NCBI GenBank assembly: GCA_001769125.1
Contig: MEOG01000017.1
Span: 1-41,800 of the forward strand
Source of the DNA: Bacteroidetes bacterium GWF2_35_48
Lineage (GTDB): Bacteria > Bacteroidota > Bacteroidia > Bacteroidales > GWF2-35-48
Direction of reading: 5' to 3'
Length of the DNA stretch: 41,800 bases
In this document: positions 2,136-6,732 of the stretch, one piece after another
Numbering within the stretch: position 1 is the first letter of the stretch
Layout: the number at the start of each line of letters is the position of its first letter
Program-made: the position numbers and the translations under genes
The notes under the pieces: model-generated
Database searches by the model: none
Told to the model about the DNA's origin: nothing
Seen by the model: the letters and a program-made list of their open reading frames with translations, nothing else

Positions 2136-5100
2136 TCAGGAAATTGAATTTCTTCTTCTATACTTCCAAAACAATTTATAAAATTTATTATTCAGTTTCA
2201 AAAGAAGAATGACAAACAGCAATAAATTCAAAAACCATATAAGAAGTATGTTGAACAAAAATGTATCCATGTAAATGCCTGCAAAAGGTTTTCCCGAAGC
2301 GTAAAAATGCGCTCTTATAAAAGAAGCATCTGAATCTTTAAATACAGGATCTGCTTTTTGGATAAGAGTTTCTTCATTTTTAATAAGCATTTTTGTTATA
2401 TTGTAGGAATTAATACAAAGCTGCGCCACTTTTTCATTGTGATGCTGCAACATCAATAAATTCAAATCCTCTTTACTTCTTAATTTTGCAGCTATTTTTT
2501 CTTTTTTCTTTCTGTAATGAGAATATTTATTTTTGCAATATGTATGCAATTTATCAAGGTAGTGCTGCCATTCGCTTATCTGCATGTAATTTTTTCTTTC
2601 CTTTTCAGGAGAATCAATTTTATATTTGGTCTTTAATTTATTTACTTCCTGAAATAAAAGATGATAATTTTTGCTAATCTGAGAATCTGTCAATGCGCTT
2701 TTTGTCGTATCAAAAACAGCCAACCTGTCTGTGAGTTCGGGAATAACAAAATTTAACAGATATGAGTATCGGCTCATATTTTTTTCTATTTCGAAAAAAT
2801 GTTTTTCATAATTATTGTCTTTAAACTGCTTTACTATCAGAGCCTCATAAGCCCATCGCGAAATCATCATATCTCCAAGCAGTGGAACGTATTCATCAGA
2901 ACCAATATTCTTATGAAGCTTATCGTAATCTACCACAACACCGCAAAATAAAATCTGGGGGATTAATATAATCGGGATTAAAATATAAGCTACAACATTG
3001 TTTTTAATTAAAGACGAAATGAGAAGACCCAGTAAATTGGAAAAAGCAGCAGCAGAAAAAAGAACGAGCCAATAATCGGTATACATTCCTTTTATCTCAA
3101 GAATTGAATTACCGATTAAAACATACAGCAAGGTCTGAAATGCAGAAATAATTAACAATAAAAACAACTTAGAAAAAAGATAAGCAGACCAGCTAAGCTT
3201 TAAAAATTCTTCTCTTTGCAAAATTCTTTTCTCATTGATAATTTCATTCACACTTAATGTCATTCCCATGAAAAGGGCAACGATAACACTTACAAAAATG
3301 TAAACCGGAATATTTTCATTACTTGCAAAATAATACACGTGCCCCTGCTCTTCAGACCAGATGTAATAGCGCGCAAAATAAGCAATAATGAAAGCCAGCA
3401 ATGGAGCTTCAAGAATATTTATCAGCAGGTATTGAAGGTTGGTAATTTTGCGTTTTGCATCGCGAATAAAAAAAATCTTTGCCTGTTTCCATTTTGTTGC
3501 AACTTGCAAATTACTTAAAGGCAGCCATCCTGTATTGGATTCAATTTTTTCAGGAATAATTTTTTCTTTAAAAGCTTCTTTCCACTCATGAGGACTTATT
3601 TTACGGTATGATGTGGATCGTCCGTACTCATCCACAACTTTTGCATCAATAACATGAAGTATACTTTCGGGATTCAGATTTCCACACGATTCGCACTGTA
3701 CGGATGCTGTATCTGCATACTGACTTACCTGTCGTATAAAAGTCAGCGCTTCCACCGGATTACCGTAAAAAACAGTCTCCCCTCCCCTGTCTAAAATGAG
3801 AATCTTGTCGAACATTTTATAAATATCCGACGAAGGCTGATGAATAGTCGCAAACACCAGACGACCATTAATCGCTAGCTCTTTCAGCTTATCCATTATT
3901 TTTACCGAATCCATAGACGACAAGCCAGAAGTGGGCTCATCAGCAAAAAGAACATAAGGTTCATGAATTAACTCTATTGCCAGATTTAAACGTTTGCGTT
4001 CTCCACCGCTTATAAATTTATTCAGAGGAGAGCCTACAGGAAGGTTTCTTATTTCATGCAGATCAAATGCTTTTAATGTTTTTTCAGCTTTCTGAATTAT
4101 TTCATCTTCCGACAAATTATTAAAACATAATTTTGCATTATAATAAAGATTCTGGAAAACCGTCAGCTCTTCAATCAAAATATCTTCCTGCGCTACAAAA
4201 CCAATAATACCTTTCATCTTATCAGTTTCACGGTAAACATTTACATCATTTATTTTGACAAGACCTTTAGCAGGAATAAGTTTTCCGCTTAATAAATTCA
4301 GAAGCGTAGATTTCCCGACACCGCTCACTCCCATAATTCCAATCAGATTTCCGGAACGTTCCGTTAATGAAAAATCCCTGATACCGTTTGCATTTCCTTT
4401 ATACAAGTAGCTGACATTCTCTGCGCAAAAAGTAAGATTCAGAAAAGAAGCCGAATGAATAAACTTTTTAGAAATATCATTATAATATATAGTATTTATT
4501 TTTGGGCTTCTGATGGAAGAACCGGTATCAAAAAGGTAAACTCTTTCAGGCAGTACATTATGATTATTGAGGTAAATAATGTCACTCCCCATGTATTTCA
4601 TGAAAAATACCGAAGGCTGGCTCAAGTATAAACAAAATATATTTCCTGAAAGATTTTCTGTTAAAAGAAACTTATCTGTTGTATCTTGTTCCTCCGTATT
4701 ACAGCCTAGTGTAAGAACATCCTTACTTTTCTTGAAATCTGAATGAAAAACAAACTGAAAACAAATATCAAATTCGTGCTCCTCGATTTTAAAAACCTCC
4801 GCAACAGTCTTAACAAAATCAATTTCTTTATCTGTAACCGATTCGCCTCTTTTTATGAATTGCAATAATTCAATCAACACAATGTACTTCTGCGATTGCA
4901 ACAACTGATCATTTATTTTACTGCAAATTTTCAGAAGCCTTATACCGTGAAACGACTGGCGTGAAGATTGATTTTTAATATCCCCATGATATTCGAAAAT
5001 AAAACTATCAAAAACTTTCAGATAATAATCAACAAGATTTTGGGGTAAAAAACCTTTCAGGTAATCGCTTACCGAAAAACGGGAATCATCAGAAACCTGC

Positions 5101-5202: not shown

Positions 5203-5223
5203 AATTAAGAATTAGGAATTGAA
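5203..5223 (+). repeat. Degenerate heptamer run at the truncated 5' end of the ORF6N pseudogene
   Basis: Three consecutive 7-bp steps (AATTAAG, AATTAGG, AATTGAA) resemble the ATTACGA heptamer runs seen near 20.06 and 38.33 kb. They occupy the place where the 5' part of the ORF6N gene should be. Confidence 0.4.
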
Positions 5224-5798
5224 TCTTGCAGTAAAAAGAAACATTGAACGTTTCCCTGACGATTTTATGTTTGAACTGAATAAAAACGAAGTTAAAGTAT
5301 TGGAGAATAGTTCAAGGAGTCAAACTGGCACCTTGAATAGAGGAGGAAATTTAAAATATGCTTCTTTTGCCTTTACAGAGCAGGGTGTAGCCATGCTTTC
5401 AAGCGTATTAAATAGTGCCTGCAAGAAAACATCAATTTCATCGTTACGCTTGACCTGAAAAGTAGTCATGTACATTAGTACACTCCTAATTTTCAGGTCT
5501 TCGCAAGCCTTGAACTTGATGTTTTCTTATCAGGCACATACATTGTGAGCAAAAAACATGAGTTTTCTTGCTGGCACTAAATAGCAAACATGCTATTCAG
5601 GTAAATATTCAAATCATGCGGATATTTACAAAATTAAAGCAATATCTAGCTGATAACAAAGAAATACTTTTGGAACTCGAAAAGCTGAAAGCCAAATTAG
5701 GGGAACACGACAGGCATATTGATATTATTTTTGAAACATTAGACGAACTTATACAAAAGAAACAAGAACCAATGACACCGGTAGGTTATAAGAAATAA
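5219..5798 (+). pseudogene. ORF6N-domain protein remnant, 5' truncated and split by an insertion
   Basis: Two fragments in different frames (5219-5458 and 5568-5798) are halves of one protein of the ORF6N / KilA-N-associated DNA-binding family. The first holds [19 protein letters not shown] and [15 protein letters not shown]; the second resumes at LNSKHAIQVNIQIMR and ends in a coiled-coil tail (ILLELEKLKAKL). The start of the domain, which in relatives precedes NLAVKRN, is missing. Between the fragments lies a roughly 162-bp element with terminal inverted repeats and a 7-bp duplication. Removing the element plus one copy of the duplication restores the reading frame through V-L-N-S-K-H-A-I-Q. 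The family is common in Bacteroidota and in phage or accessory DNA. The gene is now certainly non-functional as a full-length protein. Confidence 0.88.
5416..5577. mobile_element. MITE-like element, 162 bp, with terminal inverted repeats and TAAATAG target duplication
   Basis: The left end GTGCCTGCAAGAAAAC (5415-5430) and the reverse complement of the right end (5562-5577) agree at 15 of 16 positions. TAAATAG occurs immediately outside both ends (5409-5415 and 5578-5584). Inside, a second inverted copy of the left end lies at 5516-5537 and pairs with 5415-5435, and a further dyad (CTGAAAA / TTTTCAG) lies around a loop at 5461-5490. The element encodes no protein, so a transposase acting on it would have to be supplied in trans. 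The G at 5415 could belong to the element, making the duplication 6 bp. Confidence 0.8.
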
Positions 5799-5830: not shown

Positions 5831-5903
5831 AGCCACTCAGGAGACTCGAACTCCCGACCCGCGCATTACGAATGCGCTGCTCTACCAACTGAGCTAAAGT
5901 GGC
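5831..5903 (-). tRNA. tRNA-Thr (anticodon CGT)
   Basis: On the minus strand the acceptor stem is GCCACTT / GAGTGGC (one G-T pair), the D-arm has AGCTCAGTTGGTAGAGC and the T-loop TTCGAGT. The anticodon arm is GCGCA-TTCGTAA-TGCGC, giving anticodon CGT, which reads the Thr codon ACG. No CCA is encoded. The gene lies 37 bp downstream of murI on the same strand and 32 bp from the ORF6N pseudogene. Confidence 0.92.
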
Positions 5904-5940: not shown

Positions 5941-6732
5941 TTATTTTATTGGAATTATTTCTGATGCTTCCGCATGAATAAGCGGAAGAAGCGCTGAAAA
6001 AACAGAGGGGTCGCCGTTGACATAAAATGTATGTTTCCCTTTTTTTGATGAAGGGTTCAATAAATCCCCTGAATGCAGCAAATCGGAAACCCTGCGTGCA
6101 ATCGCAGGTGCCGGGTCAATAATTTCAGCTTTTCCTTCAACAATTTTTTCAATCAATGGAAGAAAAAATGAATAATGTGTGCAACCCAACACCAACTGGT
6201 CAACATTATTTGCAAGCATGGGTATAATATATTTTCTGAGGATTATTTCGGCTTCTGTAGAATTATGCTTTCCCTGCTCCACCAGTTCAACAAGACCTTC
6301 GCCTACCTGAATCATTATATTGCGATTCTCTGCCCATTTTTTTGAAGTTTCGCGAAACAAGCGACTCTGAAAAGTTCCCTGAGTAGCAAGTATGCCAATG
6401 TTTCCTGTTTTTGTATTTATCGCGGCTGGTTTCACGGCAGGCTCCATACCAACAAAATTTATCTTATATTTTTTCCGTAAATGATCAATTGCAGCTCCCG
6501 TAGCGGTATTACAGGCAACAACAATCAGCTTGACATTTTTCTCCAATAAAAACTCCACAATATTTTCAGAAAACGCTATAACTTCTTCCTGCTTTTTTAC
6601 TCCATAAGGACAGTTTCGCGTATCAGCATAGTAAACACAATTTTCTAAAGGTAAAGAAATGACAATTTCCTTAAAAACAGAAAGACCTCCTGCACCAGAG
6701 TCAAAAATACCGATTGGGTTTTGTGATAGCAT
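5941..6732 (-). CDS. murI: Glutamate racemase
   Basis: Converts L-glutamate to D-glutamate for peptidoglycan synthesis in the cytoplasm. In the 263-residue form the signature FDSGAGG is at residues 10-16, the two catalytic cysteines lie in ACNTAT (Cys74) and LGCTHY (Cys184, with His186), and the YADTRNCPYG motif is at about 35-44. The frame is open 15 codons further upstream (to 6777), but those residues are hydrophobic and not conserved. A TATTTTTG box at 6746-6753 would put the transcript start inside that extension, so I choose the ATG at 6732. Length is normal for the family. It is divergent from the secreted protein gene at 6905. Confidence 0.95.
   Translation of the reverse strand: MLSQNPIGIFDSGAGGLSVFKEIVISLPLENCVYYADTRNCPYGVKKQEEVIAFSENIVEFLLEKNVKLIVVACNTATGAAIDHLRKKYKINFVGMEPAVKPAAINTKTGNIGILATQGTFQSRLFRETSKKWAENRNIMIQVGEGLVELVEQGKHNSTEAEIILRKYIIPMLANNVDQLVLGCTHYSFFLPLIEKIVEGKAEIIDPAPAIARRVSDLLHSGDLLNPSSKKGKHTFYVNGDPSVFSALLPLIHAEASEIIPIK

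Follow-up and report, generated by a model that had tools for sequence, protein, structure and literature searches.

A MITE with ISNCY-type ends and a conserved, apparently ERIC-type hairpin interrupts an ORF6N-type gene in a Bacteroidales genome

An ORF6N-type gene of Bacteroidetes bacterium GWF2_35_48 is broken by a short insert whose left end seems to occur a second time, inverted, inside the insert itself. What is this insert, what moved it, and does it really possess three ends? The window, i.e. the whole 41,800-nucleotide stretch that was analysed (contig MEOG01000017.1), had been read from its letters as holding a MITE-like element at an exact and restorable site within the gene. The features on which our answer is built are as follows.

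5219–5413, + strand: left part of the ORF6N gene, the start of the domain missing (Pfam PF10543, E 1.5e-17, profile 29–86 of 86)
5409–5414, no strand: left copy of the target-site duplication, TAAATA, of the TANNTA type (duplication survey of copies)
5415–5577, + strand: whole mobile element, 163 bp (4 identical full-length copies with different flanks)
5415–5430, + strand: left terminal inverted repeat (TIR), GTGCCTGCAAGAAAAC (arm pairing, TIR pattern scan)
5415–5537, + strand: conserved imperfect hairpin of 123 nt, apparently ERIC-type (fold z, covariation, 74/290 genomes of the order)
5452–5499, + strand: apical stem-loop with the fixed internal loop TCA / CTCC (arms 5452–5473 / 5478–5499; alignment A4)
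5516–5537, − strand: inner inverted copy of the left end, i.e. the closing arm of the hairpin, GATAAG replacing GCAAG (arm comparison)
5538–5561, + strand: tail that joins the hairpin to the right end and contributes to another small inverted repeat (fold; compare the 36-bp palindrome L080)
5562–5577, − strand: right terminal inverted repeat, GTGCCAGCAAGAAAAC when read inward (arm pairing, copies)
5578–5583, no strand: right copy of the target-site duplication, TAAATA (duplication survey of copies)
5580–5798, + strand: right part of the ORF6N gene (adjoins the left part in 23/29 other homologous loci kept)

The insert has the termini GTGCCTGC..GCTGGCAC and is bounded by TAAATA on both sides. 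Its exact ends stand as predicted, but the length is 163 bp instead of 162, and the duplication is the 6-bp TAAATA instead of TAAATAG because the seventh base on the left, a G, belongs to the element as its first base. The inverted arms (5413–5430 / 5562–5579) are 94% complementary and agree at 15 of 16 positions within the insert, just as had been noticed from the letters, and the 163 bp hold no transposase, in keeping with the lack of coding capacity also noticed there. Its small size, the absence of a transposase and the 15/16 TIR make the insert a MITE.

The split of the gene and the exactness of the site are confirmed by homologous loci. The right part of the gene was searched against 119 genomes, 24 of which gave a match (the genome of the window included), and the left part was then placed on the 29 other loci kept. 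Of these, 23 have the two halves side by side without an insert (22 at −3 nt and one at −4), and the left half was not found on the remaining six. The one-codon overlap arises because the duplicated site is read in both halves. Since the halves are contiguous elsewhere, the insertion is real; what had been called direct evidence of transposition is accordingly an insertion at an exact site, from which we infer the act of transposition itself. The gene was split by the element as proposed but is not otherwise intact: it is, or became, a remnant by another route as well, because its profile match starts only at position 29 of 86 and the beginning of the domain is missing. A tRNA gene is located just downstream of the interrupted gene, at 5831–5900 (−), and one may guess that the ORF6N remnant was perhaps left behind by an element integrated at this tRNA.

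The original prediction had proposed to look for further copies with their flanking duplications, and both are abundant. A BLAST search of the genome of the window (5.98 Mb, 142 contigs), in which 40 out of 128 candidates were scored, gave 54 matches to the element, a few of them weak antisense hits caused by the palindrome. The terminal pattern, when up to three mismatches are allowed, occurs 257 times, versus 56 for a reversed control pattern. Four further copies are identical across the 163 bp and lie between duplications of TAATTA, TAAGTA, TATATA and TAGTTA. Among the 68 distinct copies examined in this genome, an exact 6-bp duplication borders 47 (124 to 250 bp long), and 43 of these 47 follow TANNTA with a variable NN. 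Exact duplications flank 64 of 106 copies from other genomes, 62 of them with TANNTA; the named genomes carrying the TIR of the window belong to Bacteroidales and relatives. At the lower extreme, L080 in the same genome is a 36-bp palindrome made of two ends plus 4 bases, with TAAATA on each side, and L125 and L129 of Paludibacter UBA5753 are 37-bp palindromes with exact TANNTA duplications (two more 37-bp palindromes of this genome, L130 and L132, have unequal flanks). Given such elements of 36–37 bp with two TIRs and exact duplications, the ends alone therefore seem sufficient for movement and the hairpin seems not to be needed. Two stretches of Plebeiobacterium marinum D04 (L136, L139), which end before the other element terminus, carry this terminal repeat next to an insert that is unrelated and lacks the hairpin core.

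A transposase with matching terminal repeats, also suggested as a check, was found outside the genome of the window in complete form. A pattern scan of species genomes gave 17 stretches in which an element end is followed by TCG, and one of these (L135, Salinivirgaceae MAG GH45) contains a complete IS of 1848 bp (2689–4536) with the duplication TAACTA. One terminus fits the TIR pattern perfectly and the other with 2 mismatches, and the two have the same base at 13 of 16 positions. The 493-aa transposase of this IS matches the NCBIfam ISNCY family with an E-value of 1.7e-121. A search of this protein against 295 genomes of the order gave a match in 24 and led to two further complete ISs: L143 (1849 bp, duplication TATATA, ends alike at 16/16, TIR variant GTGTCTGAAAGAAAAC) and L144 (1844 bp, duplication TATTTA, ends alike at 15/16, TIR variant GTGTCTCTAAGAAAAC), whose transposases are 57% and 56% identical to that of L135, respectively. 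Paired ends were not found at most of the other loci scanned from this search, many of which are fragments or lie at contig ends.

In the genome of the window, the IS with its TIR is present only as broken ends at contig borders. Contigs C81 and C53 end with GTGTCAGCAAGAAAAC and then a common longer sequence, after TAAATA and TAATTA, and contigs C103 and C19 start with the other end, GTGCCTGCAAGAAAAC, and a different common longer sequence next to the same two duplications. These four borders fit two copies of one unassembled IS, whose body is not among the assembled sequence. The same genome does contain one IS with a sister TIR (L142: 1642 bp, duplication TAATTA, ends GTGTCTGTCCATAA, ISNCY E 4.8e-99). 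All four transposases exceed the curated NCBIfam ISNCY (NF033593) cut-off of 325 bits, at 406, 384, 377 and 332 bits, the last one (L142) narrowly. When 40 stretches were scanned for a partner by pairing element ends, equal duplications marked short elements, with the exception of two pairings of 4902 and 665 bp, each of which starts with a complete short element. The mover of the MITE is thus very probably an ISNCY-family transposase, since four full-length ISs combine this TIR, a close variant or the sister TIR with a TANNTA duplication and an above-cut-off transposase. Like the MITE, these ISs have such terminal repeats and TANNTA duplications; unlike them, it has no transposase, and the ends of MITE and IS have little in common beyond the terminal 16–17 bp.

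The apparent third end turned out to be something else. The internal inverted copy exists (arms 5423–5440 / 5511–5528), but rather than a third end it is better read as the paired arm of a conserved, imperfect hairpin spanning 5415–5537. Folding of 5415–5577 gave an RNA energy z-score of −9.9, and none of 200 shuffles was as good. The comparison of the arms was made on 40 copies from the genome of the window with a verified right end (42 minus two that were repeats or had no verified end). Over its first 7 bases the left end is the same as the inner arm in 29 of the 40 and differs from it by one mismatch in the other 11; with the true right end it agrees fully in only 4 of 40. Likewise, among 18 copies from other genomes, the left end equals the inner arm in nine, with one difference in eight and two in one, and it equals the right end in none. 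Bases 7–16 (GCAAGAAAAC in the main type) are largely common to the two outer ends and are altered in the inner arm, which carries GATAAG. Bases 1–7 of the left end thus follow the inner arm and bases 7–16 follow the right end, so that two separate constraints can be seen apart, namely recognition at the outer ends and pairing of the left with the inner arm. The inner copy is probably not usable as a transposon end, because GATAAG stands in place of GCAAG. As a third working end it was rejected: GCAAG is absent from the inner arm in all copies of this genome except two (L007 and L008).

Conservation of the hairpin extends far beyond the ends. A first alignment of 13 sequences from several genera has 42 pairs, 22 of them with matched changes; 94.7% of the cells are paired versus 81.3% in shuffles, and the covariation score is 0.353 versus 0.124 in shuffles and at most 0.080 in slid versions. 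In alignment A4 (23 sequences, some of them from distant sources such as Comamonas, Proteus and a virus contig), matched changes across phyla affect 25 of 30 pairs, with a score of 0.609 versus 0.183 and at most 0.147 for slides; in both cases the structures were predicted on the alignments used for counting, which favours the predicted over the slid versions. The short motifs CGTT, TCA..TAC, GTA..CTCC and GCCTTG are fixed in A4, and the mismatched loops contain most of the positions that are invariant across classes and phyla. Stem exchanges are mostly Watson–Crick (2504 of 2785 cells). Over 67 distinct sense rows (8 antisense rows and duplicates removed), G-U numbers 21 versus 48 for A-C once three doubtful pairs are omitted, and 153 versus 48 with them. 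Since there is no excess of G-U over A-C, pairing may be kept at the DNA level with a weak RNA role, and selection acting on RNA only is weakened as an explanation. The two strands of the element are distinguished by tens of bits in model scores.

Searched over the order, a narrow model of the hairpin (R1) matched with E ≤1e-4 in 74 of 290 genomes, several of them with at least 12 matches (12 candidates scored in each). Across the phylum, sampled with 395 genomes, there were 18 with a match: the genome of the window, G497 (E 2.9e-16) and 16 genomes of f136, a family of another class (2.9e-8 to 7e-5). All E-values of R1 and of the two models introduced below are rough, as the tool itself states. 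The same core also stands behind the sister ends GTGTTTGTCCATAATG in this and other genomes, both arms having changed jointly; this type accounts for 6 of the 68 copies, and 3 more have no assignable TIR type. Copies in G497 (L202, L220) and f136 (L203–L215) have the same core with other ends, and in L215 an inverted pair is found near CACCTCTAAAAA. No Rfam family scored above the gathering threshold over the element, the best two being microRNA models with E 0.4 and 0.48. Pattern scans of viral contigs gave two stretches in one case, with the same sequence in the compared part, and none in the other; blastn of the plasmid collection with a Bacteroidales copy gave no match.

With an f136 member as query, the plasmid collection returned 16 records, 75–88% identical over 45–76 bases, from Escherichia, Proteus, Salmonella, Comamonas, Aeromonas and Klebsiella, several of chromosome size. 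The apical core was reminiscent of the ERIC primers, and ERIC has served for the typing of bacteria for decades. A 44-base query joined from the two primer sequences matched 5375 of 5426 E. coli genomes. Models built without ERIC were then compared with it. With R1 the match to ERIC keeps the full register, though its score is low (11.2 bits, E 0.015 in 644 bases). R2, which includes Proteus, Comamonas and virus sequences, reached 31.0 bits (E 9.9e-7 in 3162 bases) at positions 260–384, the ends of ERIC itself. Across the whole E. coli KE47 record (4.9 Mb), R2 gave 8 matches with E ≤10 under stricter filters by which weak matches were possibly lost, and all 8 carry the ERIC core or a related repeat core. 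At 10 further ERIC-core loci of KE47, seven had E <2e-5 and the other three scored 19.0, 14.6 and 13.0 bits. R3, made from Bacteroidota only, matched at the ERIC position in 11 of 11 loci, eight with E <0.005 and three at 13–15 bits, one of these over the core only. Its matches with E <1 off the ERIC position were two: one at E 0.9 and one in a Proteus mirabilis stretch (L234, 1007–1087, −) at 19.3 bits and E 0.008. The latter, where there is no known element, lies above the three weakest ERICs and gives 15.4 bits with R1.

Folded alone, ERIC adopts an arrangement similar to that of the Bacteroidota hairpin, and the same fold with the fixed loops in register was recovered with R2, R3 and this fold, weakly with R1. 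ERIC therefore appears to be one member of the superfamily of the window hairpin, because models built without it place their matches on the very ends of E. coli ERIC, with low scores for some copies; the link rests on the intermediates, since R1 alone is weak. The family that the original prediction did not recognise would thus have a known relative. ERIC (also IRU or RU-1) has a hairpin of about 125 bp with conserved loops in the same order (TGCGT, CAGTCA.TTAC....GTAA.CTCCTG, GCCTT), and a TIR and TSD are reported for it in the available text of Delihas (PMC2229807). The two differ in the sequence of their stems and in their hosts, which for ERIC are enterobacterial (Enterobacteriaceae and Vibrio/Vibrionaceae in the available part of PMC10969869). 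They also differ in their termini: ERIC ends TATACTC..GAGTATG in L237 and GAGTATA in other copies, unlike GTG..GCAAGAAAAC of our element. Compared with L237, strict ERIC terminal repeats (TATACTC..GAGTAT) are absent from the window element, and past the hairpin of L237 there was no sign of another outer right end. A second E. coli repeat (L233, L238, L240, L242), which we take to be possibly an RU-2-like family, has the apical core TCACGTAC....GTACGCTCC, but its lower stem is shorter and the TGCGTT / GCCTTG loop is missing.

Where the copies lie relative to genes was examined with simple open frames of at least 100 codons, defined without a gene caller, and a window of 12 bases from the stop codon. 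In the genome of the window, whose copies are not fully independent of each other, the left end lies at the stop codon of a gene of the same direction in 20 of 68 cases, and the right end at that of an opposite gene in 1 of the 51 in which a right end was found. The sample from other genomes comprised 80 stretches picked from the R1 list before their genes were viewed plus 28 loci of the same search, copies from one genome again being only partly independent. Here the left end was so placed in 42 of 106 distinct copies and the right end in 2 of the 60 whose duplication is exact and whose flank is long enough (p 4e-8); within the 60 copies with both sides known, the counts are 21 versus 2 (p 6.6e-5). 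For comparison, 54 of 1066 non-coding TANNTA sites counted in the 80 stretches, those of the elements among them, have such a position. The left end thus exceeds this background about eightfold, and the right end stays close to it. Some junctions form TAG from the TA of the target and the first base, G, of the element; in 16 of 17 such cases, counted among the 101 copies with exact duplications (copies cut by contig ends excluded), a stop codon had stood there before the element arrived. The element thus lands on a stop codon and re-makes it. Directly after the right duplication, 81 of these 101 copies continue with G or A. In a further mode, with the stop codon on the far side of the target (−6), we found 7 left ends in the genome of the window and 17 in others, and no right ends. 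Ten ERIC-core loci of E. coli, with approximate ends, had 3 left and 1 right end within 12 bases, which gives no clear bias.

Together, these observations are best explained, with a probability of about three in four, by a non-autonomous MITE that is moved by an ISNCY transposase, carries a conserved ERIC-type hairpin and lodges at stop codons. An IS that shares the ends of the MITE would provide the ISNCY-family DDE transposase in trans; the enzyme would cut at the GTGYYWGCAAGAAAAC ends and insert into TANNTA with duplication of 6 bp. Selection would keep the short mismatched loops CGTT / GCCTTG and TCA..TAC / GTA..CTCC, and the stems change mostly in matched pairs. In this genome the hairpin module is combined with two or more TIR types, and elsewhere with others, as if the superfamily changed its ends to suit different transposases. 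Copies would lodge or persist preferentially with the left end on a same-direction stop codon, which places the hairpin at the start of the 3' UTR, where it may form a 3'-end structure on the mRNA that is either harmless or useful; the copy in the window is an exception, caught in a gene remnant. Besides the orientation bias, such a role is favoured by the effect of ERIC on mRNA levels in Yersinia (available parts of Delihas, PMC2229807, and of a 2024 review, PMC10969869), which depends on orientation according to the former. We also lean slightly towards a wider view in which ERIC is a branch of a phylum-crossing superfamily of mobile hairpins, whose core is itself selected, swaps TIRs among ISNCY/IS5-like transposases, and settles one-way on stop codons, re-making the stop and becoming the 3' end of the gene.

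Could this be an ordinary MITE only, its hairpin an accident whose arms are alike through template switching at forks, with no selected function and a likeness to ERIC that reflects convergence of AT-rich hairpins? The dominance of Watson–Crick exchanges and the lack of a G-U excess over A-C without the three doubtful pairs are what arm-to-arm copying of DNA would produce, and the 36–37 bp elements reduced nearly to two TIRs (L080, L125, L129) suggest that the hairpin is dispensable for movement. Yet arm copying should erase the mismatched loops, which hold most of the invariant positions; the strands are told apart by tens of bits, and R2 hits an ERIC-type or related core with 8 matches out of 8 in an entire E. 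coli chromosome. We regard this possibility as unlikely. A stronger competitor, still doubtful in our eyes, is that the hairpin serves transposition as DNA, as a cruciform or a lagging-strand fold that brings the left end near the right end or attracts a host factor, with the placement at stop codons being an insertion preference instead of an mRNA function. The mainly Watson–Crick exchange agrees with it, as do the covariation of the left arm with the inner arm instead of the right end and the retention of the core across the change of TIR type; moreover, the G or A that follows the right duplication in most copies means that the target itself is asymmetric. Against it speak the hairpin-free elements (the minimal palindromes and the unrelated inserts behind the same end in L136 and L139) and the persistence of the bias in the −6 mode, which the G/A preference does not explain. 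The strong fold with its fixed loops and the sense orientation downstream of genes would also suit a structured or regulatory RNA gene merely bracketed by transposon ends, but the Rfam search, the absence of a G-U excess and the transposon ends with exact duplications on most copies (47/68 in this genome, 64/106 elsewhere) make it the least probable of all.

We therefore return to the reading of a MITE of ISNCY elements with an ERIC-type core, as which we file the element. Among the closest known MITEs are Correia/NEMIS, RUP and BrickBuilt, for which an IS with similar ends is likewise taken to act as the mobiliser in trans (for RUP, available text of PMC2229807), and BrickBuilt elements occur in Porphyromonas (available text of PMC4596501). 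Their descriptions, as far as accessible, set them apart by other ends (BrickBuilt: PMC4596501), and no ERIC-type core is reported in them. The Bacteroidota family is apparently undescribed, as the literature searched, with few subscription papers covered and sources available in part, held no description of it or of its ERIC link. In the available parts of PMC2229807 and PMC10969869, no transposase is named for ERIC, and no relatives beyond Enterobacteriaceae and Vibrionaceae are mentioned. Should ERIC have the same core, these Bacteroidota elements would offer it a candidate transposase family, a TANNTA target rule, a partner whose ends match and a clear rule for its placement relative to stop codons, and both the mover of ERIC-like repeats and the role of the hairpin would become directly testable. 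The element is also a case of a mobile element that is conserved inside, beyond its ends.

Finally, several loci show elements in close association. At L006 / L104 (3240–3425), L011, L017, L021 and L025, the 6-bp TANNTA that borders one element is directly followed by the end of another, as though an insertion, by creating TANNTAG, attracted the next one. Small hairpin-like repeats of about 20–40 bp (CCTGCCTACCGGACAGGCAGG, CATTTCGGCAAGCTCAATGTATCAC and others) sit within the MITE hairpin at a few recurrent places, and such hairpins within hairpins are found in the genome of the window at L016, L022, L014, L037, L091 and L118. L091 also contains, near 6638 (−), an 18-bp remnant, GTGTCAGCAAGAAAACAC, between copies of TATCTA, which is apparently the smallest left-over of an element.
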